From assembly GCF_000190635.1 (NCBI RefSeq), contig NC_015172.1, forward strand, positions 1,488,001-1,552,000: 64,000 bases of DNA, given 5' to 3'. Of this stretch, positions 34,294-53,504 are shown one piece after another. Below the pieces are notes generated by a model, which saw only the letters and a list, made by a program, of their open reading frames with translations, did not search any database and was not told the DNA's origin. Within the stretch, counting starts at the first letter, position 1. Every line of letters starts with the position of its first letter. This stretch comes from Syntrophobotulus glycolicus DSM 8271 (GTDB lineage: Bacteria > Bacillota > Desulfitobacteriia > Desulfitobacteriales > Syntrophobotulaceae). The position numbers and the translations under genes are program-made.

Positions 34294-34405
34294 AGATAGA
34301 ATCCTCCTATTGGGGTTTTCTGCTTCAGATGAAGAAATATTGTGTTTTCATAAGCCAGGATGTACAATATGCTCATAAATCCAAAATTTGTAAAAGGAGT
34401 CTGGT

Positions 34406-34549: not shown

Positions 34550-34578
34550 TTCAGTACAATCCCGGAACATTTTTGGGA

Positions 34579-35604: not shown

Positions 35605-35653
35605 ATTTTCCATCCTCTTTATCTTTTCTGGTCACCTCTGAAGGGGGCTTTGC

Positions 35654-36811
35654 TCAATACTGCATGATTCGTTTTAGAGCAAACTTGCTTTTGCATTTGA
35701 TGCGGTAAAAGCGGCCAAAATATTTCCGGCACGCATAGTGAAAGCCGTTCCGGGTATAATTGTTCCAAAACACAAAGCGCAGAGACGGTTCCGGGCAGGG
35801 CGATTCCAGCCGGGGCTGCATAATTTCGGCGATGGCGGATTCGTACAATTGCAACGAGGGAGAAACGGCTGCCAACAGACTTGCACCTTTGTCTGTGTTT
35901 GTCAGCACGGTAGATATCCCGTTGGGAAGATCAAGCTGTTGTGCGGACAGATCAACATGTCCGCAATCGGCGATTGTGATATCGGAAACGCGGGGGAGGC
36001 AGGCATACGGGCAGCTGTAACAAGACGGCCTCATGATGATTCCGGCGTAGAACAATGGATTATATTGATTCCAGGTTTGGTCTAAAGAAACCGACAATCC
36101 TTTTTCCAGGTGACAAAGCTCATTTGAAGAAAGATAACCGCTTGTTTTTGGCCGGAACTGATAATTTGTAATGATGGAATGATATCTTTTTTCCAGATCT
36201 CTGATAAAATCCGCCCAGATTACCGGACTGGACACGCCGTGACAGACCAGGTCGCAGAAAATTACACTTGAAAGGGAAAGGCTTGTCTTCGTCAATCTGT
36301 TTTTTACAGCCGCATTCTGGCAGGGTGTTCCGGTAAAAAGCACGAGCTTTCCCACGGACAGATCATCTCTTATCTGTTCATAGATGCCGGCCATATTGCT
36401 TTGTACATACTTGGAACCTTTGAAAAAATCCCGCTGGGCGGCTGTCAATGCCCTTTGATGTTCAACGGTCATCCTCTTGCCAAAGCCTGCGCCGTAGACG
36501 GCTCCGCCGAATCTTAAAATGTGATCGGAGAGTGCTGTAAATACCCCGCCCGATGTACTTGTCAGACAAACCTCAGAGCTGATATGTCGGGCAATATACG
36601 CTTTGGGTTTTCTTGCCCCTTTCGGGGCGATCGGCTGAATAAACGGGCAAACGTGCGCACAATCCTGACAATTGACGCATTTGGACGAGTCGATGCTGGG
36701 ATATAAAAAGCCCTCCTCGTCAGCCTTCATTTCAATAGCCGCCCCGGAGCAGACATCCTTGCAGGCCCCGCAGCCACAGCAGTGTGCTTTATTTTGAAGA
36801 AATACTGCCAT
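35654..36811 (-). CDS. Fe-S protein with coenzyme F420 hydrogenase beta-subunit-like domain
   Basis: 385 residues. Two 4Fe-4S ferredoxin motifs are at the N terminus: CCGCGACKDVC and CVNCQDCAHVC. They are followed by a FrhB-like region with TSGGVFTALSDH and FTGTPCQNAAV. F420 itself is not implied: such proteins are common in polysaccharide clusters of bacteria without F420, often beside pyruvyl transferases as here. A redox role in modifying a sugar or its carrier is inferred. It overlaps the flippase gene by 23 nt. Confidence 0.85.
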   Translation of the reverse strand: MAVFLQNKAHCCGCGACKDVCSGAAIEMKADEEGFLYPSIDSSKCVNCQDCAHVCPFIQPIAPKGARKPKAYIARHISSEVCLTSTSGGVFTALSDHILRFGGAVYGAGFGKRMTVEHQRALTAAQRDFFKGSKYVQSNMAGIYEQIRDDLSVGKLVLFTGTPCQNAAVKNRLTKTSLSLSSVIFCDLVCHGVSSPVIWADFIRDLEKRYHSIITNYQFRPKTSGYLSSNELCHLEKGLSVSLDQTWNQYNPLFYAGIIMRPSCYSCPYACLPRVSDITIADCGHVDLSAQQLDLPNGISTVLTNTDKGASLLAAVSPSLQLYESAIAEIMQPRLESPCPEPSLRFVFWNNYTRNGFHYACRKYFGRFYRIKCKSKFALKRIMQY

Positions 36812-38330
36812 ATGTCGTTCCCTCTTTCTTAAAAAAAGATTGGATCCGCTTGAAAAGATATTTTAATTGCCTTGGTTCAAAAACCAGCACGTTCAGGAAA
36901 GCGAGAATAAGGGCATGGATGCCGACAAGAAGTGCCCGCATGATCCATTGGATGATGTTATCGGCAGACCAGGGAAACAGCAGGTAAGGAAGTACGGTGA
37001 TCGCACATACGATGAAGGCGCGTAGTATTCTCCCGCAGGATTCTTGCAAGGGGAGAGCGGTAATGTGTTTTGTGACAAAAAGTAAAAGCGCCCATGTGCG
37101 ATAAAGATCGGAAAGGATTGAGGCGGCGACAATTCCATGTAAGCCGAAGGGAAAGGCGAGAATGATTCCGCCTCCTGTGATAATCAGAGCGGCGGCAGTG
37201 CTTTGTGTTCTGGTTTCTTTGTATTTCCCCGCCGCAATGACCAATACGCTCTGAGGGGCTTTCATACAATAGCAAAAACCGCTGAGGACAAACAAGAAAG
37301 CAATTGAAGGGATTTCATATGTCACATCCGTAATATTTCTGGTATACAACCTGATAAATGGCAGGATCATGACCAGCGTTACGGAATAAGCCGCACTCAG
37401 CAGAAAATAATAGATCACTTCAAATTCCCTGATCAAAGAGTTCAGTTTGTCTGTCTCTTTTCGGGCGATGACATCACCGAAACCGGCTGACAGCCCGTTG
37501 GTGAAGATGCCCATGATACCGTTTATGCCGCCAATCACCAGATAATAGACGGTATAAACGCTGACTGATTTCAGACCGAGAATAACTGTGGTAAGAATGA
37601 TCGGCATACCTGACTGCACAGCGGCCAAGAGCTGTTGATAAAAAACATCCCACCGTTGTTTGAGCGCCCCGGTGTTCGGCTTTGCGTTAAAATTTAAATA
37701 TCGATAGTGTTTCCGGCAGTACAACATAAGCAGCAAAGTGCGCACAGAGATCGAGAATAGGGCCAGGAAACGAACCATAACGATATTCAGCCCGCCGGAT
37801 GCTGTGAGACAGACAATGAGGGCATATAAAGCAAGATGAATTACATTGGAACAGGAAATGACATAAGTGCGCTGATCGGCAGTCAATATCGACCTGTATT
37901 TGGCAAGGGTAAAGAATTCAAGGGCTCCGTTTGTCCCTAAAATCAGGGTGAGCAGAAAAATTTCGGTTTGAGTAAGATGTTGAGCATAGACCAACACAGG
38001 GTATAAGAAAGCAAGTAAAAGGACGAAGATACAAAAAAAATAGCCTGTTTGGATGTAAAACCTTTTTGCTCCCGCAACAATTCCGCTGATTTCGTCAGTT
38101 TGTCCCTGGGCAAGCGGCTTATATAAAGAAAAGACCACAGCCCCGCTCAATCCGGCCTCTAGTAAGCTGAAATAGGAAATGAACTGGGTTAGGGAAGAGA
38201 TCAGTCCGTTTACTTCGGAACCGTAATGGACCAACAGAACGTGAGGAATAATAAATCCGACGGCTAGTGTTACACTCTGAAGGACGGCCGCTCCAATTGT
38301 ATTTTTAATGAATTTTTCCGTTCTGCTCAT
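36789..38330 (-). CDS. Polysaccharide flippase (Wzx/MATE-like)
   Basis: 513 residues from the ATG at 38330, which overlaps the stop of the pyruvyl transferase gene (ATGA) and follows AAGGA by 6 nt. About 12-14 hydrophobic helices are spread over the whole length, as in the MOP superfamily. It would move lipid-linked repeat units across the cytoplasmic membrane to the polymerase. Confidence 0.88.
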   Translation of the reverse strand: MSRTEKFIKNTIGAAVLQSVTLAVGFIIPHVLLVHYGSEVNGLISSLTQFISYFSLLEAGLSGAVVFSLYKPLAQGQTDEISGIVAGAKRFYIQTGYFFCIFVLLLAFLYPVLVYAQHLTQTEIFLLTLILGTNGALEFFTLAKYRSILTADQRTYVISCSNVIHLALYALIVCLTASGGLNIVMVRFLALFSISVRTLLLMLYCRKHYRYLNFNAKPNTGALKQRWDVFYQQLLAAVQSGMPIILTTVILGLKSVSVYTVYYLVIGGINGIMGIFTNGLSAGFGDVIARKETDKLNSLIREFEVIYYFLLSAAYSVTLVMILPFIRLYTRNITDVTYEIPSIAFLFVLSGFCYCMKAPQSVLVIAAGKYKETRTQSTAAALIITGGGIILAFPFGLHGIVAASILSDLYRTWALLLFVTKHITALPLQESCGRILRAFIVCAITVLPYLLFPWSADNIIQWIMRALLVGIHALILAFLNVLVFEPRQLKYLFKRIQSFFKKEGTTYGSISSK

Positions 38331-39418
38331 ATCCATTCCTTGATCATGTTTCGGAGATAACGGACAGCGCTTTGCCGGTCCTGATTAAGAATAGAGTCCA
38401 CTTGACGGTAATCAATCTCCGTAAAGCTGTTTTCTCCCAATGCGGAGTTTCTGTTTTCCAGATGAAAGTGTTCCACAATATTTTTCAGCCTGGAATTGGT
38501 ATCCGAAGAATACTCAAAGAAAAAATTTTTCTTGAGGTTAATGGAAAAAGCAATTCCGTGGAAGGAATTTGTTACGACAGATTGAGCATTGATGAACAGG
38601 GAAAGCCATTCTCTCGGCGTCGCATCACAAAAGAACTCAGTGTTGCTTTTGAACCGGTTTAAAAAATTCCCCCCGATGCGAACCAGCCTGCAGCCGGTTT
38701 TGGCAGACAATCTCCGGGCAAACCGATAGAGGGCTTCGGAATCCTTCACAGTGTAGTACAGGAGATAACGCTCATCGCCAAAAACTGGGGGTGCCGCTTC
38801 ACCTGCCCACTCTTCGCCGGTCAGCAACAGCGTAGGATCGGGAACAATAGGGGGAACGATTCCCGTAAGACTTTTCACAAGGGCTTGTCCGGCCTGCTCC
38901 CGGACACAGAGGTGGCGGAACCGTTTGAGCAGCTCTCCGATCTTTTCCTGCTCTGTCGCAGAGGGGAAAGATTCCAGGCCAAAGCTGGGGGCGTAGGAAG
39001 CTTTTTTCTGATCATCCGTACAAAAGTCCAAAAAATAGCTGTAATCATGATTGGTTATCTCGGTATTCCATACCTGATCGCTGCCGCAGATCAACAGATC
39101 ATACCGGGCTTGCAGGGGACTGAGGCCGGAAGGATGGGTGAGGCAACGCTTTGGATAAAACCGCATGGTTCTTTCAAAATCGGAAAAGCCTCGGTATCCT
39201 TTGTGATGGATGATTTTTCTGACCAGCGGCTGGAGCAGGCTTGTTATCGGCTTTTTCGAGGTGTTTTCGGCATGTCTTTCCCAGCGCATATGATCATTGT
39301 GATAATTGATTACCTCAACATCTCCGCCCAGTCTTTCAAGGGAGCGGTACAAGGCGAACAGCTGAAGGGAAGCGCCAAAGCTTGAAGAATGGGGAAATGA
39401 AAGAATACCAATGTTCAT
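38327..39418 (-). CDS. Polysaccharide pyruvyl transferase family protein
   Basis: 363 residues. Family signs are the N-terminal GILSFPHSSSFGASLQ, LLICGSDQVWNTE near residue 110, PDPTLLLTGEEW near 200 and TNSFHGIAFS near 295. Such enzymes put a pyruvate ketal from phosphoenolpyruvate onto a sugar and give the polymer negative charge. It neighbours the Fe-S/FrhB-like protein, a pair often seen together. AAAGGAG lies upstream. Confidence 0.88.
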   Translation of the reverse strand: MNIGILSFPHSSSFGASLQLFALYRSLERLGGDVEVINYHNDHMRWERHAENTSKKPITSLLQPLVRKIIHHKGYRGFSDFERTMRFYPKRCLTHPSGLSPLQARYDLLICGSDQVWNTEITNHDYSYFLDFCTDDQKKASYAPSFGLESFPSATEQEKIGELLKRFRHLCVREQAGQALVKSLTGIVPPIVPDPTLLLTGEEWAGEAAPPVFGDERYLLYYTVKDSEALYRFARRLSAKTGCRLVRIGGNFLNRFKSNTEFFCDATPREWLSLFINAQSVVTNSFHGIAFSINLKKNFFFEYSSDTNSRLKNIVEHFHLENRNSALGENSFTEIDYRQVDSILNQDRQSAVRYLRNMIKEWI

Positions 39419-39425
39419 TTTGAGA

Positions 39426-40781
39426 TCATCTCCTTTCTGTCGGGGGAAAATTGGGGTTGAGGCCTTTGGCTTGTGGCAGCTGCCTATTCAAGATCATCCA
39501 GCAAAAGATGAGGTAAAAGGGTAAGTAGTAGTCAAACAGCTCGTTAAGGAAGAAGCTGATCATGATCAGCAGTACAACCGGGAAATAGTTAAAAAATACT
39601 CTCTTGCTTGTCCTTTGCCGGATAAAAAGAGCAAAGGACACCGGTATCAAATACAGGATCGCTCCGATCAGGCCAAGATGGTAGACGATTTCAAGATAAA
39701 AATTGTGGACTGCCCTGCCGTTTATCATGTTATTGTTGGCACCTACGCCAAAACACAAAGTGAACGGACGCTGCTTCAAAAAATCGATGTACCATAGCCA
39801 CAGCGCGGAGCGGCCTGTTGTCGCGTCCTCTGTTTGAAAGCGCCTGATCATGATGTTGATCAGCTCAATCCGTTCCTGAAGGATGGCAAGTATAACGGCT
39901 GAGAGGACGATAGCAATACCAATGATGACCAATAAACGTCTTTTCTTTGATCCCGCTTTCAACAAAGTAAAGGCAGAGACAAAAACCAGCAGGGAGTAGA
40001 ACAGCGTAAACGATTTGCTGTAAGTAAGAAAGCCAAATCCTGATAATATGATAAAAAGCAACCAGTATTCAATTCCTAGCTCTTTCTTAAGATAGAGAAC
40101 AGTGAGGGCGGCAAGACAGATCATAATTCCCGCCGAATAGTAATTTGGATCGGAAACCAAACCGGTGAACCTGGAATAAAGCACTCCGTCGATATACAGA
40201 GAATCAGCTTGAGAAAGGTAATAATTGATTTTGGGCAGTGAAGCTTTGAAAAGCCCCATAGTCGAAGAAGTGATCAGGCCAAGGGAGAATAGAAGGGTCA
40301 TCTTTTTGAGGTAATCCGGGCCGGCGCGTTCTGTAAACAGCAAAAACAGCAGAAGGAAGGCGCAGAGCTTGACTATGGTCAGAAAATCACCTGAAAATTG
40401 CACAAGCAGATACGCAAGGAGGATGAGCACAGAAAACAGTGTTGTACATCTGATTGTCTTCCTTTTCAAAGCAAGCACAGCGACAAGAATAAAAAGCAAA
40501 ATGGTATACAGTGAGGTTGGAAAGCCACCAATTTTATAAATGGCGGCAAATGGCAATAGAAAAGCCATTTGGCTGAACATGTCTCGTTCTGTAAGGAACA
40601 AAAGCATACAGACATGGATGACAAATGCCGACAGCGCAAAGACCGGGCTGAACAGGCCGCCAAGCAGGAGAGCAGCTGATGCCAGGCTAAGCCCAAAACA
40701 TGATAAAAGGCTTAAACCTTGCCGGTCAGCCGAGAGTCCATCATATTCATACGGATATTTCCTCAATACAATACTGCTCAT
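39426..40781 (-). CDS. O-antigen polymerase/ligase-like membrane protein (Wzy)
   Basis: 451 residues from the ATG at 40781, 8 nt after GGAG. The longer frame from 40844 would run into the preceding glycosyltransferase gene. About 10-12 membrane helices flank a larger outside loop with GRSALWLWYIDFLKQRPF and VHNFYLEIVYHLGLIG, the motifs of the Wzy/WaaL family. It probably joins the exported repeat units. Confidence 0.85.
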   Translation of the reverse strand: MSSIVLRKYPYEYDGLSADRQGLSLLSCFGLSLASAALLLGGLFSPVFALSAFVIHVCMLLFLTERDMFSQMAFLLPFAAIYKIGGFPTSLYTILLFILVAVLALKRKTIRCTTLFSVLILLAYLLVQFSGDFLTIVKLCAFLLLFLLFTERAGPDYLKKMTLLFSLGLITSSTMGLFKASLPKINYYLSQADSLYIDGVLYSRFTGLVSDPNYYSAGIMICLAALTVLYLKKELGIEYWLLFIILSGFGFLTYSKSFTLFYSLLVFVSAFTLLKAGSKKRRLLVIIGIAIVLSAVILAILQERIELINIMIRRFQTEDATTGRSALWLWYIDFLKQRPFTLCFGVGANNNMINGRAVHNFYLEIVYHLGLIGAILYLIPVSFALFIRQRTSKRVFFNYFPVVLLIMISFFLNELFDYYLPFYLIFCWMILNRQLPQAKGLNPNFPPTERR

Positions 40782-40818
40782 TTGATTAACTCCATATTTG
40801 GTAAAAAATAGTAATTGA

Positions 40819-42006
40819 TCAGTCGATGAGCCGATAAAACTCATTTAACGCCGAGGAATTGTCGTACCGGCGCGTGAAAAGCTGCCGCTTTTTGACCGCT
40901 GTTAAGCTCTCTCTGTTTTCAAAAACCCCTTTGAGGCCCTTTATAAGTCCTCCTGTGCTGTTCTCGCAGACAAAGCCTGTTCCGCTGCCGGCAACCATTT
41001 CCACCGCGGAAACTGTAGCTGTTGTCAATATCGGCAGCCCAAGGAGTTGAGCTTCTCCGAATACCATGGGAGCCGCTTCATGAAAGGACGGGACCAAAAG
41101 CAAATCCGCATTTGTCATATAGCGATAGGGATTACTTTGATTTCCGTACATTTGCACATATCCTTCTAAGCCGAGTACCCGGATCTGAGCTTTCAGCTTA
41201 TTCTCGAAAGAACGCGTACCTCCGCCGACAATATGCCAAAGAAAAGAGTGTCCATCATTTTTTAAGACGGATAAGGCTTCCAAGGCCCGAAAATGTCCTT
41301 TTTCTTCACTGAGTCTGGCTACGGTCACGATATTGAGGATATCCTTGCGGTAAGCGAGCGGCTCATTTCCAGCCAGGGTCAGGATTTTTTTCTGATTATG
41401 GCAATTCCTGACGACAGTGGTCTTCCCGGCCAGTCCCGGTTCCGCCGAAAGGAAGATATCCTTTACACTTTGGGAAACAACGGCGATACGGTCAAACCTC
41501 TTATAAATGTGATGATTATGGCGGTTATTTAACCCGTAGGCGACATAATCACAATGAATAAAAGCTGCCTTTTGTTTTGACAGGACATTATGCAAAACAA
41601 ATTCGTTGCACCCGCCATAGAGGCTGTTGGGCGGTGCTGACTGAGTGCAGGATATCGCCCAATCGTAGCCTGAATATTTGCGGTTGGAGGCAAAGATCAG
41701 CTTATAAGGGAGGGTATCGCCACATACTTTTGTGAGCCCGCCGAGAAGATACCTTGTCAGCCAGAGATGAACTCCTTTTTCCCAAGACTCTTTTTGAGAG
41801 ATGGCAATAAGATCAGCCAGAGAATTTGCCGCCATGAGATTCACAGATAAAGGCAGGTCCTCGATGTCATTGGCATCCGGATGGAAGAGGAGCAAATCGA
41901 CGCTGATTTTTTTGTCTTTATCCAGTTCCTGCAACAGATTGCAAAGAGAGGTGGCGATACCGCCCGCCCGCAGAGTTGTCATCACAAACAAAAGTCTTTT
42001 TTGCAT
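40819..42006 (-). CDS. Glycosyltransferase family 4-like protein (first of three)
   Basis: 395 residues with a GT-B fold: RAGGIATSLCNLL at the acceptor-binding N terminus and NIVTVARLSEEKGH, then ADLLLVPSFHEAAPMVFGEAQLLGLP, the donor-binding E-x7-E type region. It adds a sugar to the lipid-linked repeat unit in the cytosol; donor and acceptor cannot be read from the sequence. AGGAG precedes the start. Confidence 0.88.
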   Translation of the reverse strand: MQKRLLFVMTTLRAGGIATSLCNLLQELDKDKKISVDLLLFHPDANDIEDLPLSVNLMAANSLADLIAISQKESWEKGVHLWLTRYLLGGLTKVCGDTLPYKLIFASNRKYSGYDWAISCTQSAPPNSLYGGCNEFVLHNVLSKQKAAFIHCDYVAYGLNNRHNHHIYKRFDRIAVVSQSVKDIFLSAEPGLAGKTTVVRNCHNQKKILTLAGNEPLAYRKDILNIVTVARLSEEKGHFRALEALSVLKNDGHSFLWHIVGGGTRSFENKLKAQIRVLGLEGYVQMYGNQSNPYRYMTNADLLLVPSFHEAAPMVFGEAQLLGLPILTTATVSAVEMVAGSGTGFVCENSTGGLIKGLKGVFENRESLTAVKKRQLFTRRYDNSSALNEFYRLID

Positions 42007-42040
42007 TCGCCGGCTCCTGATTGATCATCCTCATGATCAG

Positions 42041-43135
42041 TTAAATAATTTGATGAAGAAATTCATTAAACCGCTGAAATACGACAGCATTGGAAAAGTG
42101 TTTCTCGAAAATCTCATAAGAATATCTGTTAAACGGGGGAGAGTCTACGGCAAGCCAGGAACGGATAGCAGAAATAAAAGCGCTGTTGTTTTTGCAGAGC
42201 CCCCCGATTTTATTGAAATCACCGGAGATTCCTTCAAACGCTTCCGGTGTTGCAAAAACAGCTTTCCCGTATTTTAACGCTTCCACTGTTTTTGTTTTCA
42301 TCCCTGAGCCGGAATAGATCGGGCAGATCACTGCCTTGGCGTCGATATAAGCCTGCTCAATATTCTCCAAAAAACCTTTTAATACAACCTTGGGATTAGA
42401 GGTGACTTGCCGGTTTTTGGCAAGCGCTTCACAGCAGTCGCCAGCTACCCAAAGTGTAATATTAAGGTAAGGGAGGGCATGCAGGATGAAACTTGTGATT
42501 CCTTCCACATTTGCAAAAAAATTTCCGCCGACAAAGAGAAAATAACCTTTTTGGCCGGCTGACTGGATTTTCCGGATATCGGCACTGGGATAACTGGTCG
42601 GCAGACAGCAGTCAGCTTTCCGACCGTACAATTGCTGAAGATCGCGGCTGTCTCTTTCATTTAAGGTAATGATGCAATCCGCATATTTCGTACAAATTCT
42701 TTCATTATGTTTGATATACAGATACATAAAATAGTCTCTCATCAGCAGGGAGCTCAGATATTTTTGGCGGTAAAATACAGTCTCAACATTATGGTAAAAA
42801 ACAACCGTTTTTATTTTTTTGCCGCACACGGACTTAACATAATCTCCGTAAATAGACCCGTTAAAAAATGCGGCATCGTAATTTAAATGCAGTAACTGGT
42901 TCAGCTGAGCGGCGGCTTGGGGTGTATGCCCGTAACTTTGCCTGAAGGCCATGTTCATCATCCGCTTGACTGTATTGGGTTTTTTTAAGAATAGGTAATC
43001 AATGTTTTCCTGCCGCATAGAATGCTGAACCATACTCAGAACCCGCCGCGCACCATATTCGCCGCCGTCAGCGGGCTGATTGCCGCCGCTGGCGCCTCTA
43101 CCGACAAATAACAGCTTTTTTTTGCCCTTTGCCAT
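42041..43135 (-). CDS. Glycosyltransferase (second of three)
   Basis: 364 residues from the ATG at 43135, with GGGAGG 7 nt upstream. It is a GT-B type enzyme, with FVGRGASGGNQ near the start and GYFLFVGGNFFANVEGI plus VICPIYSGSGMKTKTVEALKYGK in the C-terminal half. Substrates are unknown. It shares the GSGMKTK/GAGMQNK block with the next glycosyltransferase, so the two are likely relatives. Confidence 0.86.
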   Translation of the reverse strand: MAKGKKKLLFVGRGASGGNQPADGGEYGARRVLSMVQHSMRQENIDYLFLKKPNTVKRMMNMAFRQSYGHTPQAAAQLNQLLHLNYDAAFFNGSIYGDYVKSVCGKKIKTVVFYHNVETVFYRQKYLSSLLMRDYFMYLYIKHNERICTKYADCIITLNERDSRDLQQLYGRKADCCLPTSYPSADIRKIQSAGQKGYFLFVGGNFFANVEGITSFILHALPYLNITLWVAGDCCEALAKNRQVTSNPKVVLKGFLENIEQAYIDAKAVICPIYSGSGMKTKTVEALKYGKAVFATPEAFEGISGDFNKIGGLCKNNSAFISAIRSWLAVDSPPFNRYSYEIFEKHFSNAVVFQRFNEFLHQII

Positions 43136-43199
43136 GAATAAACCTCCCATCCTGTTGGCTGCCGATTATGTATCTGAGGATATTTGCCCGGCTCATCTG

Positions 43200-44387
43200 T
43201 CAGCCCGCTACACTTTGGATGATCCTAACCCATTTTTCCGAGAGGACCTTCCAGGAATATTTGTTTTCTACCAACTGTTGTCCGTTTTGGCCGATTTTTT
43301 CTCTTAGAGCCGGATCATGGTACAGCGTCAGGATTTTTTCCAGATAATCTTCCGGCCGCTCTGCCAGCAGAAAGTCCCGTCCGGCTATTCCCTCCAAACC
43401 TTCGGCGGCAATTGAGGAGATGACTGTCGGGGTTCCCACAAGCATGCTTTCCAAAACCTTATTCTGCATACCGGCCCCGCTGCGAATGGGGGCGACCATG
43501 GCGATGCACCGGCTGATCAGTTCAAAGGGATTTTCCACAAACCCGGTGATGATGATCCCTTCAGTCTTCGCCAGCTCACAGACTTTTTTGGTCGGTTCGA
43601 TCCCGATAATGTAAAAAATCAGTTCAGGAATTCTCAATTTGAGCCTGGGGAATACTTTTCGGCAGAACCATAAAACCGCGTCTTCATTAGGCTGATAAGA
43701 CATTTTCCCTAAAAAACAAATTTTATTCTGGTCTTTCAGGTAATTGCTTTTGCGAACGGCAATATCATCCCGTACGGCAACAGGGACGATCGTTATCTTG
43801 TCAGGACCTGCTCCCAATTGTTCCAAATAAGCCTTGTCTACCGGAGAAATAATAATATTTCGGTCAAAATGATTGACAATATCTCGTTCATAAGCTTTCA
43901 GCCGTTTGTGCTCCGTACGGTAAATGATTCTTTTTATCCCGTTGGAATGGTGAATCGTGTTTTGATAGGTATAAGAGATTGCATCATGCATATCCAGGAT
44001 TTTCTTGATTCCCTGGAGCGGTTTGGCATATTCGGCTGCCCTTACATGATTTGCAATGACCACGTCGTAATCCTGACTCAAGACTGACAGCCTGGCTGAA
44101 AAAAGCCTGTTTTGATATAAACCAACCTGAAATGGACGCCTGTGGTTAAACAAGCATTTTAACAGGTTGCAAATGACCTCGGTTTTGCGCAGGGGGATCG
44201 TTTCAACATAATCGAAAACGTCTTTAAGCTCCTGGTCATAGCTCTTTTCCTGAGAGGTAAGCTGAAGCAGGCCGACGGAATGTCCGGCGCTTTTCAGATG
44301 CTTGGCGGTATTGAATATGCGAATTCGGAATCCGGCGGTCAGGGGATAAGGAATCCTTGTTGATAATATGAGAATATTGATTTTCGA
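43200..44387 (-). CDS. Glycosyltransferase with missing canonical start codon (third of three)
   Basis: The first ordinary start is a TTG at 44153 (about 317 residues). In-frame coding continues upstream to the stop of the sugar transferase gene, giving KINILILSTRIPYPLTAGF, the normal N terminus of this family. No ATG, GTG or TTG exists there: the codon before AAA is TCG, directly after the upstream TGA. Removing one C would recreate GATGAAAATC with an ATG at the expected place. Possible readings are a one-base insertion (mutation or sequencing error), a rare non-AUG start such as ATC at 44381 after GAGG, or stop read-through from the upstream gene. The C-terminal half is intact (SGAGMQNKVLESMLVGTP). 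Confidence 0.75.
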   Translation of the reverse strand, partial: SKINILILSTRIPYPLTAGFRIRIFNTAKHLKSAGHSVGLLQLTSQEKSYDQELKDVFDYVETIPLRKTEVICNLLKCLFNHRRPFQVGLYQNRLFSARLSVLSQDYDVVIANHVRAAEYAKPLQGIKKILDMHDAISYTYQNTIHHSNGIKRIIYRTEHKRLKAYERDIVNHFDRNIIISPVDKAYLEQLGAGPDKITIVPVAVRDDIAVRKSNYLKDQNKICFLGKMSYQPNEDAVLWFCRKVFPRLKLRIPELIFYIIGIEPTKKVCELAKTEGIIITGFVENPFELISRCIAMVAPIRSGAGMQNKVLESMLVGTPTVISSIAAEGLEGIAGRDFLLAERPEDYLEKILTLYHDPALREKIGQNGQQLVENKYSWKVLSEKWVRIIQSVAG

Positions 44388-45101
44388 TCACCTCGCACCA
44401 TGATGGTTGAATACAATAACGACAGTTTTTAAAATTAATTGAATATCCAGGACTAAGGACTGGTTTTTCATATACTCGACATCCAGCAGAATCTTTTCTT
44501 CCGGCAGCAAGTCATAGCCGCCGTTGACCTGAGCCAGGCCTGTAAGTCCAGGCTTGACCATCAGTCTTTGATGGAAGCCATGAATGTAAGTTTCAAATTG
44601 ATCATAAAAAATTTTGCGCTCGGGACGAGGCCCGACCAGACTCATATGGCCGGTCAGGATGTTAAGCAACTGAGGCAGCTCGTCCAGCCTGGTTTTGCGG
44701 ATCAGCCGTCCGACCCGCGTCAGCCTGTCGTCTTCTTTGGAAGCCCAGCGCGGTCCGTCCGCTTCGGCATCAATCCGCATGGAGCGGAATTTAAAAAGCC
44801 GGAATGGTTTTCCGTTTAATCCCAGGCGCTCCTGAGTAAACAGGGCCGGGCCTTCTGAATCAAGCTTAATCCATACCCCAATGAGCAGCATGGGAAAAAA
44901 TAAGATCAGGAGTCCGTTCAGGCTGACCGCCAGATCAAGCAAGCGTTTTAGAGAGCGGTAGACAAATCCGTTTTTTAGAGAGCAAAGCTGCTCGATCATA
45001 ATAATGTCATCATTACTTAGATTTGTTTTTCCCGGCTCATGGGCGGTGTGAATGGCCGCCGCATTGTCAATCATTTTTTTTAAAGCAGTTGCTTCAATCA
45101 T
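44388..45101 (-). CDS. Initiating sugar-phosphate transferase (WbaP/EpsL type)
   Basis: 237 residues from the ATG at 45101; the GTG at 45113 abuts the AAGGAAG site and is less likely. One membrane segment (about 50-75) is followed by the catalytic region with FKFRSM, TRLDELPQLLNIL, LVGPRPE and VKPGLTGLAQVNG. It moves a hexose or amino-sugar phosphate from a nucleotide sugar to undecaprenyl phosphate, the first step of repeat-unit assembly. Confidence 0.92.
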   Translation of the reverse strand: MIEATALKKMIDNAAAIHTAHEPGKTNLSNDDIIMIEQLCSLKNGFVYRSLKRLLDLAVSLNGLLILFFPMLLIGVWIKLDSEGPALFTQERLGLNGKPFRLFKFRSMRIDAEADGPRWASKEDDRLTRVGRLIRKTRLDELPQLLNILTGHMSLVGPRPERKIFYDQFETYIHGFHQRLMVKPGLTGLAQVNGGYDLLPEEKILLDVEYMKNQSLVLDIQLILKTVVIVFNHHGAR

Positions 45102-45134
45102 CCTTGAAGACACCTTCCTTTAACTCCTTGCCGG

Positions 45135-45803
45135 TTAATACTTACTACACCCAAAAAAACAGTCCTCAAGCATCAGGCACCAGCAATGATAAATGGGAAG
45201 GTGCAGCTCCTGAATCCGATATGTCACCGTCTCCGGCACCCGCACCGTGACATCAGCTATTTGAGACAGCATGCTGGGGCGGTCACCGGTCAGCCCGATG
45301 ATTTTCATGTTTTTTGCTTTTGCCGCTACGGCTGCGTACAAAAGGTTTTGAGAATTCCCGGACGTAGAAATCGCCAGAAAAACATCCGGTTTTTGCCCGT
45401 AAACGTGTACCTGCTGGGCATAACAGAGCAGACCGTCAACATCATTGGCATATGCGGTGTTCAGAGCCGGATGGTTTTGGAGAGCGATAGCGGGAAGTCC
45501 GTCTTGAAGCTTGACGGCCAATTCGTTTCCCCTGGTCGCATCGATGGCGATCATGGAGTCAATCAGTCTCTTGCTCAGCTTGCGTGGAAGTTCGAAGCTT
45601 TTCATCAGCTCGCCCACGATGTGTTCGGCATCGGCCGCACTGCCGCCGTTTCCTGCGATGAGCAGCTTGCCCCCGTTTTTATAGCAGGCTTCCATAAAAA
45701 AATAGGCCCGGAGGATATCTTCGCCGATAGGCGAGAGTGCGGGATATCGTTTAAGTAATTCAATATGTCGCCGCAGTTGAGATCCTATACTGCTCATAGA
45801 CAT
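45135..45803 (-). CDS. gmhA: Sedoheptulose-7-phosphate isomerase-like SIS protein
   Basis: 222 residues from the ATG at 45803, 9 nt after AAAGGA. SIS-domain motifs are GNGGSAADAEHIVGEL and AISTSGNSQNLL. GmhA converts sedoheptulose 7-phosphate to D-glycero-D-manno-heptose 7-phosphate. The next three steps are covered by the two genes just upstream, which makes this assignment stronger than the fold alone. Confidence 0.85.
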   Translation of the reverse strand: MSMSSIGSQLRRHIELLKRYPALSPIGEDILRAYFFMEACYKNGGKLLIAGNGGSAADAEHIVGELMKSFELPRKLSKRLIDSMIAIDATRGNELAVKLQDGLPAIALQNHPALNTAYANDVDGLLCYAQQVHVYGQKPDVFLAISTSGNSQNLLYAAVAAKAKNMKIIGLTGDRPSMLSQIADVTVRVPETVTYRIQELHLPIYHCWCLMLEDCFFGCSKY

Positions 45804-45819
45804 CAAGACCCATCCTTTC

Positions 45820-47109
45820 TCATCTGTCCAAAATGGTACAAATACAGTCATAAAGGGTCGGAAAGCTTTTGGCGTTTAGAGGTGGCTCCTCCCCGATGAA
45901 GCATACCTGGCAGCCCGCGCTGAGTCCCGCCTGTATATCACTTTCGCTATCCCCGATCATCCAGGAGCGGGACAGATCGATATTGAATTTTTGGGCCGCT
46001 TTTCGCAGCATTCCCGGCTTTGGTTTCCGACAATCACAATGGATTTTCAGCTCCGGACGTTCTCCGGCAAAGCCTTTGCGGGGGTGATGAGGGCAGTAAT
46101 AAAGCGCGTCGATATAGGCGCCCTGGCGGCCAAGCAGGGTTTCCATCTTATGATGAATCTCCTGTAATCCTTCCGGAGAAAGTTCACCCCTGGCAATGAC
46201 CGGCTGGTTAGTCACGACAATGGCCAGGTAGCCGCTGTCATTAATCTTTCTGATGGCATCAGCCACATTGTCCATCAAGGCAAAATCTTCAATACTGGTC
46301 AGAAAACCGACATGCTTATTGATGATCCCATCCCTGTCTAAAAAGACTGCCCGCTGTCTGTTCGAGAGATTTTTTTCTCCGACGATTCCTGTCCTGACGG
46401 CGGAGCTTACGGAGCTGAGACGTTCCGGGGTTCCCATGTCTTTAACATATTCCGGGGAATCATAGGCGTACAGCCTGCCGGTTGCGATCAGGGGCTGCAA
46501 AATATCCCGGTCCAGGTCCCTCTTCTGCAGAGTGGCAAAGGCAGACAAAATCTCAGGGGAAAGGATATGTAAGCCCGCATTCACGCGGTTGGGGCAATAC
46601 ATGCGGACATCCTCGCTGTGGAGCCATCTTTTTACGCGGCTTTCCTGATCCGTCACAATAATGCCGCTGTCATAAGGATGGCTGTTCGGGTGTGTAAACA
46701 GCGTTGCCAATCCTTTCTTATCCCTGTGAAACTGATAAAAGCGGTTGATATCAATATCAAAGATGATATCCCCGTTCAGCAGCAGGAAATCCTCTTTGCA
46801 TTTATCCCGGAGCCAGTACAGAGCGCCTGCCGTACCCAAAGGCTCTTCCTCCGCCACATAGGAAAGATGAACGCCGAAAGGCTTTCCGGTTGCCGGAGAG
46901 CGTTTATCCCCATTGCCGAAGTAAGTCTGAATCGTATGGGACAAATAACCGACGGTCACTGTAATATCCGTAAACCCTTGTTTGTGCAGGCACTCAATCT
47001 GATGTTCCAGGACCGGTTTACCCAAAACCGGTATCATGGGTTTGGGTATCCTTGAATGGACGGCGGAAATTCGTGTGCCTCTGCCACCGGCTGTGATGAC
47101 AACCTTCAT
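45820..47109 (-). CDS. Fused heptose-1-phosphate nucleotidyltransferase and heptose bisphosphatase
   Basis: 429 residues from the ATG at 47109, with GGATGGG 7 nt upstream. Residues 1-240 are a sugar nucleotidyltransferase (GGRGTRI, then PKPMIPVLGKP, then LNGDIIFDID). Residues 250-429 are a HAD phosphatase of the GmhB type (FLDRDGIINKHVG, VVTNQP, a Cys/His zinc loop CPHHP with CDCRKPKPG, and GDSESDIQAG). The fusion covers the phosphatase and guanylyltransferase (HddC) steps of the GDP-heptose pathway in one chain. The nucleotide GTP is inferred from the HddA-type kinase next door. Confidence 0.88.
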   Translation of the reverse strand: MKVVITAGGRGTRISAVHSRIPKPMIPVLGKPVLEHQIECLHKQGFTDITVTVGYLSHTIQTYFGNGDKRSPATGKPFGVHLSYVAEEEPLGTAGALYWLRDKCKEDFLLLNGDIIFDIDINRFYQFHRDKKGLATLFTHPNSHPYDSGIIVTDQESRVKRWLHSEDVRMYCPNRVNAGLHILSPEILSAFATLQKRDLDRDILQPLIATGRLYAYDSPEYVKDMGTPERLSSVSSAVRTGIVGEKNLSNRQRAVFLDRDGIINKHVGFLTSIEDFALMDNVADAIRKINDSGYLAIVVTNQPVIARGELSPEGLQEIHHKMETLLGRQGAYIDALYYCPHHPRKGFAGERPELKIHCDCRKPKPGMLRKAAQKFNIDLSRSWMIGDSESDIQAGLSAGCQVCFIGEEPPLNAKSFPTLYDCICTILDR

Positions 47110-47122
47110 ATCTGATCCCATC

Positions 47123-48136
47123 CTATCCTACGAGTAATTCAACAGGCTCATAGTTTTCCGGCATATAATGAATGATCCGTGTTCCTTGATTTTCAAAGCG
47201 AAAGGGAACATAGAGCAAGCTCTTTAACGCTTCCTGAACAGCTTTTTTCCTGCCAGGTTCCACATAAAACAAGAAGAAGCCTCCGCCTCCCGCACCGAGC
47301 AGTTTTCCGCCTACTGCCCCGGCTTTTATTGCGGCATTGTAAAGCTCGTCAATGGAATCTGTCGAAATCTTACTGGTGAGATTTCTTTTGATTTTCCAGG
47401 TATGATCCAAGAGCTCTCCGAAGTCTTTTAAATCTCCGTATTGAGAGGTGAGAATCTTTTCGGCCTCCTTTACAAGGGACAGGATTTCCAGCAGCTGTCT
47501 TTTTTTGTCGGTGATCGCCTGTTTTGTTGACACTTGAATATCGCAGGAGAATCTTGAAAAACCGGTAAAGAACAGCAACAAATTGTCATTTAACTGCCGT
47601 TTCCTTTCAGGGAGCATAATGAGGGGATTTACCGTGTAGCCATCGGCACTGAAATCGATTCGGTTAAACCCTCCAAAGGCGGCGGCAATCTGGTCCTGCT
47701 CGCCCCCGGCCTCCTTGCACAGCACCCGTTCCAGGTAGATCGCATCACTGGCCAATTTCCCCTTATCAGCATATTGGCCCTTTAAGGCAAAAAATGCGTT
47801 CAGCAGACCGACGGCAAAAGAGCTGCTTGTACCAAGGCCGGAGCGTGCCGGGAGATCGGCCTCATAAGTCAGCCTCAGCTCATGCAGATCTAAATATTTC
47901 ATTGCTTCGCGTATGGCCGGATGACGGATCTCATCTGTTGAGGTCACACGCTCGGTAATGGAATAAGACAATTCTGTGGAATAGGCAAAGAATCTTGGCA
48001 AATGGCGAACCGTAACATAGCAGTATTTATCAAAGGTGGTTGAGATGACCGAACCTTTGTGCTCCCGATAAAATTCGGGGAAATCTGTTCCGCCTCCAAA
48101 AAAGGACATTCTTAGCGGGGTCTGTGTAATAATCAT
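47123..48136 (-). CDS. hddA: D-glycero-D-manno-heptose 7-phosphate kinase
   Basis: 337 residues of the GHMP kinase family. Motif 1 is TPLRMSFFGGGTDFPEF, the ATP loop is ARSGLGTSSSFAVGLLNA and the C-terminal block is GGKLLGAGGGGFFLFY. HddA phosphorylates heptose 7-phosphate at carbon 1 and leads to GDP-D-glycero-alpha-D-manno-heptose, known from the S-layer glycan of Aneurinibacillus. It is nearly adjacent to the fused phosphatase/nucleotidyltransferase gene. The 137 nt upstream (48137-48273) show nothing clear. Confidence 0.9.
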   Translation of the reverse strand: MIITQTPLRMSFFGGGTDFPEFYREHKGSVISTTFDKYCYVTVRHLPRFFAYSTELSYSITERVTSTDEIRHPAIREAMKYLDLHELRLTYEADLPARSGLGTSSSFAVGLLNAFFALKGQYADKGKLASDAIYLERVLCKEAGGEQDQIAAAFGGFNRIDFSADGYTVNPLIMLPERKRQLNDNLLLFFTGFSRFSCDIQVSTKQAITDKKRQLLEILSLVKEAEKILTSQYGDLKDFGELLDHTWKIKRNLTSKISTDSIDELYNAAIKAGAVGGKLLGAGGGGFFLFYVEPGRKKAVQEALKSLLYVPFRFENQGTRIIHYMPENYEPVELLVG

Positions 48137-48273: not shown

Positions 48274-48771
48274 TTATAGGCTTATTGCGGGAACAAGCTG
48301 GAGCACAGCAGGATAAAAGCGCCCTTCTTGCCGGTAATAAAGATCAAAAATCTGAGCAAGCTCCCTAAATATGTACTCTTGAATAAATGTCTGCGCTACG
48401 TTCTCCTGGCAATATTCTGTCAATCTTCTTGAACCGCCGGCTGTTGTGGAAAATAAATCCTGATAGCCCTGTTCCGTTTTTTCTTGAATAATAAACATTC
48501 CGATCCAATGAAAGAGAGGGGAGACGCGGTAAATAAAACGAAATCCTGCCGATGGCGGATAAACTCCATAAAGAACCCTTGTAACGCAATCCGTGGAAAA
48601 TTCCGTGCACCAGGGGAAGACACGGTTTTCCAGAAGCTCGCTCAGCACAGACAAAAGCTCCTGCTTCTTTGCCGGTTTCATAACAGGATCTGCCTTCCCG
48701 AAAGAAACTTCATCATAAAATGCTTGCTTTTCTGACAAGGGATCGCTCAGAGGAATCTCAAGGTGGTGCAT
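48274..48771 (-). CDS. Hypothetical protein at the head of the polysaccharide cluster
   Basis: 165 residues, not recognised. No signal peptide or membrane helix is clear; the chain is rich in aromatic residues (FPWCTEF, FRFIYRVSPLFHW, IFDLYYRQ). AAAGGAAGGG lies 5 nt before the ATG, and the spacing to hddA fits a shared transcript. It is the most upstream gene of the cluster and lies 55 nt from one of the inverted repeats around the recombinase. Confidence 0.65.
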   Translation of the reverse strand: MHHLEIPLSDPLSEKQAFYDEVSFGKADPVMKPAKKQELLSVLSELLENRVFPWCTEFSTDCVTRVLYGVYPPSAGFRFIYRVSPLFHWIGMFIIQEKTEQGYQDLFSTTAGGSRRLTEYCQENVAQTFIQEYIFRELAQIFDLYYRQEGRFYPAVLQLVPAISL

Positions 48772-48825: not shown

Positions 48826-48853
48826 TGTCGCTGTTTTATTTAAACCGCGACAG
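48826..48853. repeat. 28-bp inverted repeat, left copy, beside the recombinase
   Basis: It matches the reverse complement of 50192-50219 at 27 of 28 positions. The element is itself nearly palindromic (TGTCGC ... GCGACA around TTTTATTTAAA). No T tract follows here, so this copy is a poor terminator. The two copies enclose the recombinase gene. The remainder of 48772-48926 shows no gene. Confidence 0.75.
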
Positions 48854-48926
48854 GACAGGGGCAAACATCGTTGTTCAGGCCCATGCCAGGGTAGTGTCTA
48901 TTTTTTATGACAGCTGATAATCCACG

Positions 48927-50063
48927 CTACATCGCGCTTATCCACTGCTTTTCATAAAAAGAATTCATTTTATCTATGGCAATAATCTTTTGTTCCATCA
49001 GGGAATGGGCATAGGTATTCAGCGTGACAGTCACACTGGAATGTCCCAATAACTCGCTGAGCGTTTTAATGTCCACACTCATTTCCAGAGCCCTGGTTGC
49101 AAAAGTATGTCGTATGGCATGGAATTTCCGGGGCGTAATCTTCGCTTTATCCAACAGCCTTTTATAGACCCTCTGATAAGTTCTTGGGTCTGTAGGGCCT
49201 TTTTTATTGGAAAAAATATAGGAATCCTCTTTCGATTGAGAGCTTTCTAAAGATCGCATCTTTTGAATCAAAAAATTGGGTATGGGGATTTTACGCATAG
49301 AACTGCGGCTTTTCGGAGTAGTAATTGAAAGTTGAGTTTTTCCGTGTTGGGTATTCTTTTTTTTGATTCGGGACACGGTTCCATTAATGAGAAGAGTTTT
49401 GGCATCCAGATCAACATCCTTCCAGCTTAAAGCGCATAGTTCACCCAGCCGGATCCCGGTGTAAAAACACAATAAAATGCCCACAGACCTGATATCATTG
49501 TCCCTCATGATTTCAGCTTCAATCAAACGTTGTTCTTTCATGGAAAAAACTGCTACCGGCACGCTTTTGGACTTGGGCAGATGAAAAGCCTCCATGATGG
49601 ATCTGTAATTTTCAGCATTCTTGAAAATTTTTTTCAGGGCAGTTTTAAAAATCGACAGCACTTTTCTTTTATAGGTCTCCGACAAATGCTGATTGCGGCT
49701 GATATAGCTGATAAAATATTTGATATGCCCTTCAGAAATCGCTCCTCCTCCAATCTCCAGCGAATCAAAAAACGGAATGACATAGGTTGCCATGCAATAA
49801 TAATAGCTGTCGTATGTTGTGGGCTTAACACGTTCGCGAACATCATCATTGAGCCATTTTTTCAATAGACAGGATAAAGGATGACGACTATTCGGGGACG
49901 TTTCAGGGAGACTCAGAAAAGCTTTCATTAGCTTCTCCTTTTTATTTTGCACTTCATCGTAACTTTGTCCGTATAAATACCGATGTTTGCCGTCCGGCTT
50001 CAATACACGGCAGACCCAGCGGCCATCCTTACGTTCATAAATGTTTTCTCCGAATTTACTCAC
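48927..50063 (-). CDS. Tyrosine site-specific recombinase (phage/Tn916 integrase type)
   Basis: 378 residues from the GTG at 50063; the GTG at 50075 overlaps GAGG and is less likely. An N-terminal arm-binding region (YERKDGRW), a SAM-like core-binding domain and a catalytic domain follow. The active-site set is visible: Arg in GIRLGELCALSWKD, His-x-x-Arg in HAIRHTFATR, the second His in LGHSSVTVTLNTYAH and Tyr in the same segment. It should be active. No excisionase or other mobile genes accompany it, and 28-bp inverted repeats lie on both sides. Confidence 0.92.
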   Translation of the reverse strand: MSKFGENIYERKDGRWVCRVLKPDGKHRYLYGQSYDEVQNKKEKLMKAFLSLPETSPNSRHPLSCLLKKWLNDDVRERVKPTTYDSYYYCMATYVIPFFDSLEIGGGAISEGHIKYFISYISRNQHLSETYKRKVLSIFKTALKKIFKNAENYRSIMEAFHLPKSKSVPVAVFSMKEQRLIEAEIMRDNDIRSVGILLCFYTGIRLGELCALSWKDVDLDAKTLLINGTVSRIKKKNTQHGKTQLSITTPKSRSSMRKIPIPNFLIQKMRSLESSQSKEDSYIFSNKKGPTDPRTYQRVYKRLLDKAKITPRKFHAIRHTFATRALEMSVDIKTLSELLGHSSVTVTLNTYAHSLMEQKIIAIDKMNSFYEKQWISAM

Positions 50064-50191
50064 TTTATTTTGCACCTCAGCTATTTAATTTAGGATAGTT
50101 CGTGGGCCAGAATACAAGATCCGACAAAAATTATCATAAATAATAGTTTAACTTGCAATCTATACCATTTTTTCTTATAATATAAAAAAAG

Positions 50192-50219
50192 CTGTCGCGG
50201 TTTAAATAAAACCGCGACA
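50192..50219. repeat. 28-bp inverted repeat, right copy, also a terminator for minus-strand transcripts
   Basis: A 13-bp stem from GCTGTCGCGGTTT with an AAAT-type loop (whole hairpin 50191-50221). Read on the minus strand it is followed by seven T, a good intrinsic terminator. It is the partner of 48826-48853. Confidence 0.8.
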
Positions 50220-50233
50220 GCTTTCGACATCGA

Positions 50234-50287
50234 GAAGAGAAATAAAACAACAACCGGAATGAACAGGTTGTTGTTTTATTTCTCTTC
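50234..50287 (-). terminator. 22-bp perfect hairpin downstream of the metal ATPase gene
   Basis: Arms 50234-50255 and 50266-50287 are exact complements around a 10-nt loop, with TTTTATTT inside the arm. It lies about 86 nt past the ATPase stop, in tandem with the hairpin at 50191-50221. Confidence 0.75.
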
Positions 50288-50373
50288 TTTTATTTCCGTC
50301 AATACTCTGCGGGAGAGATCAACGGATGCTGCTGTCAGAATTCGTTTGAAATGAAGTGAAGCAGGGCTTGGCC

Positions 50374-52728
50374 CTATTCGACGACACGCATAGCCCTCAT
50401 GGCATTGAGAATGGCAATGATCGCCACACCCACATCCCCGAATACGGCTTCCCACATGGTGGCAATTCCTAAAGCGCCCAGGACAAGGATGACGGCCTTT
50501 ACTCCCAAGGCAAAAAGAATATTCTGCCACACTATGCCGCGGGTTTTGTGCGCAATCCGGATTGCGGAAACAAGCTTTGAGGGTTCATCCGTCATCAGCA
50601 CGACATCGGCTGCCTCAATGGCCGCATCGGAGCCGAGCCCTCCCATCGCGATGCCGATATCTGAACGGGCAAGCACGGGGGCATCGTTGACGCCGTCGCC
50701 GACGAAGACCAGTTTCCCCTTGGCTGGTTTCTCCTTTTCCAGGTTTTCCAGCTGTTCAACCTTTTGATGGGGCAGAAGGTCGGCGTAAACCGCGTCAAGT
50801 CCGATTTCACCGGCGATTTTCTCGCCGACGGTTTTGCTGTCCCCTGTCAGCATGACAAGGCTTCTCACTCCGATGGAGCGCAAATCCTTGATTGCCTGCT
50901 TACTGTCCGGTTTAATTTCGTCAGAGATGACAATGGTTCCGGCAAAGACTCCGTCAACGGCAAGATAGACAACGGTGCCCGAGGTGTCCTCCTTTTGACA
51001 GGGAATATTCTCGGCATCCAGAAGTTTGCTGTTTCCGGCCAGTACCGTCTTTCCGTCCACCTTGACCCGGATACCGAGCCCGGATAGTTCCTCATGCTCC
51101 GAGAGCTTCCGGGTGTCAATTTCCTGACCGTAAGCCTTTTGAATGGAAAGGGCAATGGGGTGGTTGGAATAACCTTCGGCGTGGGCGGCATAGAAGAGCA
51201 GATCATCCTGTGACCAGCCGCCTGCGGCTGTAATTTGGGCAACGTTAAACACGCCTTTTGTCAAAGTGCCTGTTTTATCAAAGACAACCGTATCCACATT
51301 ATTCAGGGCCTCCAGATAATTGCTTCCCTTAATCAAAATGCCGTTTTTCGAGGCGCCGCCGATGCCGCCGAAAAAGCTGAGAGGAATCGAAATGACCAAG
51401 GCGCAGGGACAAGATACAACTAAAAAGACCAGGGCGCGGTTAATCCAATCCGCGAATGTTGCTTCGGCAATAAGCAAAGGCGGAATTACGGCCAGGGCGA
51501 GAGCGGCAAAGACCACAAAGGGGGTATAGTATCTGGCGAATTTTGTGATAAAGTTCTCCGTAGGAGCCTTCTTGCTGCTGGCATTTTGCACCAGATCCAA
51601 AATTTTAGAAATGGTGGATTCGCCAAATTCCTTGGATACCTCAATCGTCAGCAAGCCATTTTTGTTGATTGAGCCGGACAGAACCTCGCTTCCGGGTTCC
51701 ACATCTCTGGGGAGGGATTCCCCGGTCAGGGCCGAAAGATCCAAAGCCGATCTGCCGTCCAGGACTCTGCCGTCAAGAGGAACCTTTTCTCCGGGCTTGA
51801 CAATAATGACATCTCCGATCCCGACTTCTTCCGGTGTGACCTTACGCAATTCATTACCGATTTGCAGATTGGCAAAATCCGGGCGGATGTCCATAAGGGA
51901 AGAAATCGACTTGCGGGAGCGGTTGACGGCAAGCTGCTGAAAAGCCTCGCCAATCTGATAAAAGAGCATGACGGCAACACCTTCGGGATATTCGCCGATG
52001 GCAAAGGCGCCTATCGTAGCCACGCTCATCAGGAAGTTTTCATCAAAAACCTGACCCTTGGAAATGTTTTTCAATGCCCTGTATATGACTTCGCCGCCGA
52101 TCAGGAGATAACTGAGAAAAAATAAAATGAATTCTGCCGGCGTCCCGAAATCGAACAGCATACCGGCGGCAAAGATTGCCGCACCGGTGCCCAGCCCAAT
52201 ACGGTAGGCCCATTTCTTCCAGAAGCGGGATGCTTCCTGGTCATTTTTTTTATTCGTATAGGAAATTTGGATGTCCGGTTCGATCTCCAGGGCGATTTGA
52301 GAGGCCTGCCGGATGATACCGGGTAAATCCTTTTGATTCAAAGCTTCGATGGTGAGCTTTTGAGAAACAAAATCAAGGACTGCCGTTTTTACTCCGTCTA
52401 TCAGGTTAACCTGCTTCTCAATCTTCTGTGCACAGTCGGCACAGCACAGACCAAACAGATAGATTACCTTTTTGCCCGGCTGTAAAGTCTCCTTTTCATT
52501 CATCATGATATCAGGATCGTGCAGTTTTACGATGGAGTCCGCTTGGGCCACAAGGCTGTTGACCTTTTCCCCGTCCGCAATTTCCATCGTGAAGGTTTTG
52601 GAGACAAAATCGACGGTAGCGGAGGAGACTCCTTCCAGATTGCCGACTTCTTGCTCAATCTTTGCGGCGCAATTTCCGCAGCAAAGCCCTTCTAAAATAA
52701 ATTCTTTTCTGATTATTGCTGTATCCAT
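50374..52728 (-). CDS. cadA: Zn/Cd/Pb-exporting P1B-type ATPase
   Basis: 784 residues. Two N-terminal heavy-metal domains carry LCCGNC and LCCADC. Eight membrane helices are expected; the metal-path motif is SCPCALV and the phosphorylation site DKTGTLT, with TGDS and GDGVNDAP in the ATP-binding part. The layout matches CadA/ZntA exporters, which pump Zn(II), Cd(II) or Pb(II) out of the cytosol. The CadC-type repressor gene lies just upstream in the same direction. The 132-nt gap between them holds an inverted repeat (52781-52810). Confidence 0.92.
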   Translation of the reverse strand: MDTAIIRKEFILEGLCCGNCAAKIEQEVGNLEGVSSATVDFVSKTFTMEIADGEKVNSLVAQADSIVKLHDPDIMMNEKETLQPGKKVIYLFGLCCADCAQKIEKQVNLIDGVKTAVLDFVSQKLTIEALNQKDLPGIIRQASQIALEIEPDIQISYTNKKNDQEASRFWKKWAYRIGLGTGAAIFAAGMLFDFGTPAEFILFFLSYLLIGGEVIYRALKNISKGQVFDENFLMSVATIGAFAIGEYPEGVAVMLFYQIGEAFQQLAVNRSRKSISSLMDIRPDFANLQIGNELRKVTPEEVGIGDVIIVKPGEKVPLDGRVLDGRSALDLSALTGESLPRDVEPGSEVLSGSINKNGLLTIEVSKEFGESTISKILDLVQNASSKKAPTENFITKFARYYTPFVVFAALALAVIPPLLIAEATFADWINRALVFLVVSCPCALVISIPLSFFGGIGGASKNGILIKGSNYLEALNNVDTVVFDKTGTLTKGVFNVAQITAAGGWSQDDLLFYAAHAEGYSNHPIALSIQKAYGQEIDTRKLSEHEELSGLGIRVKVDGKTVLAGNSKLLDAENIPCQKEDTSGTVVYLAVDGVFAGTIVISDEIKPDSKQAIKDLRSIGVRSLVMLTGDSKTVGEKIAGEIGLDAVYADLLPHQKVEQLENLEKEKPAKGKLVFVGDGVNDAPVLARSDIGIAMGGLGSDAAIEAADVVLMTDEPSKLVSAIRIAHKTRGIVWQNILFALGVKAVILVLGALGIATMWEAVFGDVGVAIIAILNAMRAMRVVE

Positions 52729-53488: not shown

Positions 53489-53504
53489 TAAAAGGGGGAT
53501 GTTT

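Follow-up and report, generated by a model that had tools for sequence, protein, structure and literature searches.

In Syntrophobotulus glycolicus DSM 8271, a 1.39-kb segment (48826-50219 of the 64,000-nucleotide stretch of DNA that we analysed, hereafter the window) probably constitutes a self-contained invertible-promoter cassette (probability of about 0.83). It carries a tyrosine recombinase gene and a promoter pointing outwards between two inverted sites, and it adjoins a polysaccharide operon. The best reading of this cassette is that it represents a new version of the known invertible-promoter switch.

Sites, recombinase and promoters of the cassette

The cassette and its right flank comprise the following features (window positions):
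48826..48853, no strand: putative left crossover site, operon side, TGTCGCTG-TTTTATTTAAA-CCGCGACAG
48908..48911, minus strand: single GTCA, remnant of a tandem motif, at the conserved distance of 58 nt from the left site
48927..50075, minus strand: 382-aa tyrosine recombinase with intact catalytic residues, domains PF00589 and PF14659 (SAM-like, N-terminal)
50130..50158, minus strand: probable recombinase promoter, TTGCAA-17-GATAAT, 9/12 matches
50153..50181, plus strand: outward sigma-A promoter, TTGCAA-17-TATAAT, within the putative invertible segment, 10 nt from the right site
50187..50225, minus strand: hairpin and T-run resembling a terminator of the ATPase gene, formed by the right site with its flanks
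50192..50219, no strand: putative right crossover site, promoter side, inverted relative to the left site and also the stem of the minus-strand terminator
50233..50288, no strand: perfect hairpin with 23-bp arms, in the gap between cassette and ATPase gene, directly after the right site
50374..52728, minus strand: heavy-metal P-type ATPase, 3' end toward the cassette and the outward promoter

The two sites are 28 nt long, complementary at 27 positions (96%) and separated by 1338 nt. A previous sequence-only reading had described them as lying in opposite orientation, enclosing only the recombinase gene, with the left copy 55 nt upstream of the first gene of the cluster; the coordinates, the complementarity and this distance were all confirmed. 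Each copy is a near-palindrome, so that its orientation depends on its centre. Since this centre is asymmetric (TATTT versus AAATA), the copies can be defined as inverted (96% alike in this orientation versus 86% in direct orientation). The half-site core of the left site is CGCNGTTT-N5-AAACNGCG. The pair scores 25, versus a mean of 10.1 and a maximum of 14 for the null obtained with swapped flanks (387 pairings), and the repeats surrounding the segment are thus above chance. Random window segments of the same geometry gave a mean of 9.9 and a maximum of 25, this maximum being taken to come from draws that contain the site pair itself. Only two copies of the site, at three mismatches or fewer, were found in the 3.4 Mb genome. 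A relaxed core pattern retrieved one near-match as a candidate third site, which was rejected: it is located inside a 379-aa reading frame and such matches occur at about chance frequency.

The recombinase has an intact frame and matches the Phage_integrase domain (PF00589) with an E-value of 6e-29. The catalytic R...H-x-x-R...H...Y residues (R209, H319, R322, H345 and Y355) are present and invariant in the alignment of relatives, hence the enzyme is a tyrosine recombinase and not a serine recombinase of the Hin-type invertase systems. Its score against the Fim-type tyrosine DNA invertases (PRK09870) is 32.1 bits, far below the curated cut-off of 221. A 16-nt direct repeat (94% identity; 49941-49956 and 50064-50079) has one copy over the start region of the gene and the other 123 nt downstream within it.

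The outward promoter is near-consensus (10/12 matches). It is arranged back to back with the probable recombinase promoter, and the palindromic -35 hexamer TTGCAA is common to both. At the sequence level, the window has the promoter expected of an inverton, located inside the segment and pointing outwards. The genes that would be switched are those of the polysaccharide operon, designated by their adjacency only, 55 nt beyond the left site:
48274..48771, minus strand: first operon gene, 165 aa, no Pfam or NCBIfam match
47123..48136, minus strand: GHMP kinase, best NCBIfam match HddA (heptose-7-phosphate kinase), below its cut-off
45820..47121, minus strand: nucleotidyltransferase fused to a GmhB-like phosphatase
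45135..45851, minus strand: phosphoheptose isomerase-like protein (GmhA, below its cut-off)
44388..45113, minus strand: exopolysaccharide polyprenyl glycosylphosphotransferase
32819..44153, minus strand: remainder of the operon, with three glycosyltransferases, a Wzy_C ligase/polymerase, a polysaccharide pyruvyl transferase, an FrhB-like protein, an NAD epimerase, Wzz and an AAA_31 (CpsD-like) protein

By its gene content, this operon is a complete polysaccharide locus that includes a pathway for a heptose-like sugar. On the other side of the cassette, positions 53499-57008 encode a secreted-looking protein of 1169 aa, apparently with repeat and cell-wall-binding regions.

Repeat-bracketed integrases in other Bacillota

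The closest relative that we found shares only 47% protein identity with the recombinase, and scans with the single sequence detected no close homologue. The relatives sharing the bracketed anatomy are all distant (31-47% identity). Inverted repeats surround integrases of R. albus, E. gilvus, E. raffinosus, Vescimonas, E. faecalis and faecal contigs, where they mostly span about 1.4-1.6 kb, and one genome of the same family as S. glycolicus also has an integrase between inverted repeats. Among relatives as a whole, the repeats are mostly 1.1-1.8 kb apart. In an ungapped search of all fetched loci, dozens scored above 14, a value never exceeded when flanks of different loci were swapped (387 trials). 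By the cut-offs used, 46 of the 139 aligned integrases of the tree are bracketed, a label given by the score relative to this null maximum of 14, plus two borderline cases and two added by hand. A separate profile search across the phylum gave nine hits outside the S. glycolicus genome, eight of which have repeats scoring at least 21. This anatomy in dozens of distant relatives supports the switch proposed by the sequence-only reading, as do the crossover-like invariant centres of the sites, the conserved outward promoter and the frequent surface-operon neighbours described below.

Repeat carriers fall in an Enterococcus clade, in a large clostridial clade and in a three-member clade made of the window, Lacrimispora defluvii and Pygmaiobacter, while more distant integrases mostly have no repeats. 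In the three-member clade, repeats are clear in the window and in Lacrimispora but not in Pygmaiobacter, whose contig is truncated. The Lacrimispora site core is CGCAGTTT-N5-AAAC versus CGCGGTTT-N5-AAACCGCG in the window, so that a half-site core CGYRGTTT-N5-AAAC is common to the window and this relative, one of the closest (47% identity), which have other neighbours: the Lacrimispora cassette adjoins a chemotaxis receptor.

We aligned 54 site pairs, two sites per cassette, on their palindromic centre. Mismatches are 0-2% at central positions -3 to +5, up to about 26% in the arms and about 70% beyond them, the repeats having been picked for similarity, which accounts for part of the contrast between centre and edge. 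The mismatches drop around the axis of symmetry, as a tyrosine recombinase needs for exchanging strands. An essentially invariant centre of about 9 bp flanked by varying palindromic arms is as expected of a site at which such an enzyme would act.

Furthermore, the outward promoter is found in relatives inside the 5'-side repeat of the recombinase, on the opposite strand, as seen by reading the inner flanks. In a simple matrix scan, it is significant in 38 of 46 cassettes (mean score of 11.2 versus 5.7 for shuffles), and the three other combinations of end and direction are close to the null level. It was also detected in six of the eight cassettes of the independent set, i.e. in 44 of 54 overall, and in only 6 of 70 integrases that have no repeats.

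A tandem GTCA motif (GTCR-N6-10-SGTC) also recurs in direct orientation at two places in the cassettes (L038-L256): counted inwards, these are mostly 125-290 nt from the 5'-side repeat and 54-69 nt from the 3'-side repeat. On the plus strand, 58 of 66 matches fall within two tenths of the cassette length; the other strand has only two. Judging from these fixed positions, the motif may be a second, arm-type binding site of the recombinase. It is degenerate in the window, where one GTCA is left.

Elsewhere, the cassette design is found next to surface genes of many Firmicutes from the gut and the environment, among them genes for adhesins and pili as well as capsule operons. First or second neighbours of surface type include WxL, pectate-lyase-like adhesin, Big_2, Big_6/LPXTG, MucBP, dockerin and BspA-type LRR proteins, as well as TadZ, Wzz, LicD, polysialyltransferase and glycerophosphotransferase-like proteins. 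Others are not of surface type (helicases, TnpB-like proteins, the chemotaxis receptor and proteins without known function). One faecal contig carries two divergent, duplicated capsule operons on either side of its cassette. The divergent flanks of the cassette are inverted duplicates of each other in L043 (7200-9764) and L108 (5401-7315), and two near-identical capsule operon starts flank the cassette in L043. Such an arrangement suggests that the L043 and L108 cassettes would toggle between two operons. An R. albus plasmid (L037; 5885-9068 and 9298-13321) has further recombinase genes next to its cassette, two for tyrosine-type enzymes and three for 'recombinase family' proteins.

We would give even odds to a broader proposal, namely that these elements form a widespread and so far unrecognised class of autonomous switch cassettes of Bacillota. 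Its members would have a tyrosine recombinase inside its own invertible segment, a divergent outward sigma-A promoter upstream of it, inverted palindromic crossover sites and tandem GTCA in direct orientation at two fixed places (upstream of the recombinase gene and near the 3'-side site), and would mostly be assembled with the promoter away from the surface operon. No description of a bracketed single-gene recombinase cassette was found in the open literature that we searched, which does not prove its absence. A segment of about 1.4 kb could escape searches tuned to short invertible promoters. A recombinase between inverted sites, with an outward promoter on its 5' side, is a signature that can be recognised in one genome without any reads and that predicts which capsule, adhesin and pilus operons are phase-variable. 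It also makes clear predictions for surface variation in enterococci, ruminococci and Lachnospiraceae.

Predicted OFF state and search for the inverted orientation

From the sites, the gene, the promoter sequence and their conservation across the family, we infer an inversion reaction, a change of expression and the ON and OFF labels as follows. The recombinase would bind the palindromic arms of both inverted sites, and strand exchange within their identical asymmetric centre would invert the whole segment, recombinase gene included. In the assembled orientation, the promoter points right, at the hairpin and the ATPase gene (3' end), leaving the polysaccharide operon without this promoter (OFF). 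Inversion would bring the end of the -10 box to about 48864; transcription would then run leftwards across the left site and enter the operon, with a leader of about 85 nt ahead of the first operon gene (ON). Since the recombinase gene would flip with the switch, its own expression context would differ by state, a point of relevance to the way in which these switches keep a bias.

The outward promoter of the right-hand end, missed by the sequence-only reading, is what places the assembled state at OFF: it faces away from the polysaccharide operon, toward the strong hairpin and the ATPase gene. The window assembly is thus predicted to be OFF, and the hairpin at 50233-50288 could stop transcripts from the outward promoter in this state. 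The window is not alone in this respect. The neighbour on the promoter side is convergent, as in the window, in 31 of the 52 cassettes that have a neighbour there, hence no gene is evident that their promoter could drive in the assembled orientation. Moreover, the gene on the 3' side of the recombinase is co-directional in 43 of 52 cassettes. Taken together, the two tendencies make most assemblies, window included, look OFF. In a few cassettes, it is the promoter side that adjoins the operon, and in some, genes lead away from the cassette in both directions; the neighbour table was built from mechanical reading frames, a few of which are spurious.

No inverted molecule was found. In E. raffinosus, three cassettes each have one orientation across four, two and three strains, and no pair of strains with opposite orientations was found among plasmids, faecal phage records, species of the same genus or site patterns of viral contigs. 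A possible assembly break at the invertible end in G475 was discarded, the orientation being the same as in G407. Contig ends near integrases are in excess (8 observed versus 2.5 expected), a count that is suggestive of mixed populations but confounded, and on which we do not rely. Inversion may take place rarely or under certain conditions only, or may have been lost in places. In E. raffinosus (L039, L207-L210), the cassette is 78% and the operon 89% identical between strains, with a left flank at 99%, and in one strain the match stops at the left flank. The cassette and its operon thus seem to vary jointly, as one module.

A loss of inversion would mean, for the window, that a cassette of an invertible family is now locked in this strain and that its operon is expressed only by read-through of the recombinase transcript. 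The degenerate GTCA arm motif, the invariance of the E. raffinosus cassettes between strains and the co-directionality of recombinase and operon speak for such a state. However, the frame and catalytic residues of the recombinase are intact, the sites are alike at 27 of 28 positions with identical centres, and the outward promoter keeps 10 of 12 consensus matches. We therefore consider a locked cassette unlikely.

Other explanations and known switches

It is very unlikely that the segment is what remains of a mobile element that once integrated here, its repeats being attL and attR. The recombinase does resemble integrases of phages and conjugative transposons, and its best PDB match is 6emy, an 'Int protein' of a transposon that is the closest solved catalytic domain by sequence. 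Transposon integrases of this kind excise and insert a large element, whereas the window contains none. Furthermore, no cargo lies between the sites, these are inverted (96%) and not the direct core repeats (86%) of an integrative element, and the single-gene layout with its outward promoter recurs across the family.

The sequence-only reading regarded shared terminator sequence as the main alternative: an ordinary intrinsic terminator palindrome would happen to lie on both sides of a resident integrase. Both copies are palindromic. As that reading had claimed, the right one doubles as a terminator of textbook form, which serves the ATPase gene and exists on the minus strand alone. No T-run accompanies the left copy, however, and its fold is less stable (-13.3 kcal/mol), so that a hairpin followed by a T-run exists at the right copy only. 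The palindrome is not widespread as a plain terminator either, with no third copy in 3.4 Mb, and the site centre is inverted and not direct. In addition, integrases of relatives are bracketed in a like layout by different sequences, while one of the nearest relatives keeps the half-site core. This alternative accounts neither for the left copy nor for the family, and we hold it to be highly improbable. Hardly credible, finally, is the view that the repeats are operator or attenuator elements for autoregulation of the recombinase: one site does overlap the start region of the outward promoter, but inverted, asymmetric, near-identical centres and paired sites at both ends would be left unexplained.

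The invertible-promoter cassette that we favour shares traits with several known systems. FimB and FimE (PRK09870 and PRK09871) are tyrosine DNA invertases that flip a promoter, as proposed here, but their recombinase genes lie outside the segment and the window protein scores far below their cut-off. Hin is a serine recombinase. The Hin-type switch resembles the window in that recombinase gene and outward promoter lie inside one segment bounded by inverted repeats, and differs from it since the window enzyme is a tyrosine recombinase with palindromic two-arm sites. Hin, of the Salmonella flagellar switch, has been named as a recombinase located within its invertible segment (PMC5903667). Clostridial invertons of hCom2 (inverton group 139, invertase group 35) were tied to tyrosine recombinases, shift orientation in culture and are located near surface genes (PMC11892184). 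They share with the window the class Clostridia, a tyrosine recombinase and inverted repeats. Compared by layout, however, about 206-228 bp separate the repeats in the two group-139 examples with coordinates (PMC11892184), too short for a recombinase gene, whereas the window has the gene inside a 1.3-kb segment. The well-studied RecV switches of C. difficile (cwpV, flagellar) likewise combine a tyrosine recombinase, inverted repeats and surface phase variation, but RecV acts on several distant short switches and only Cdi7 has an adjoining recombinase (PMC5903667).
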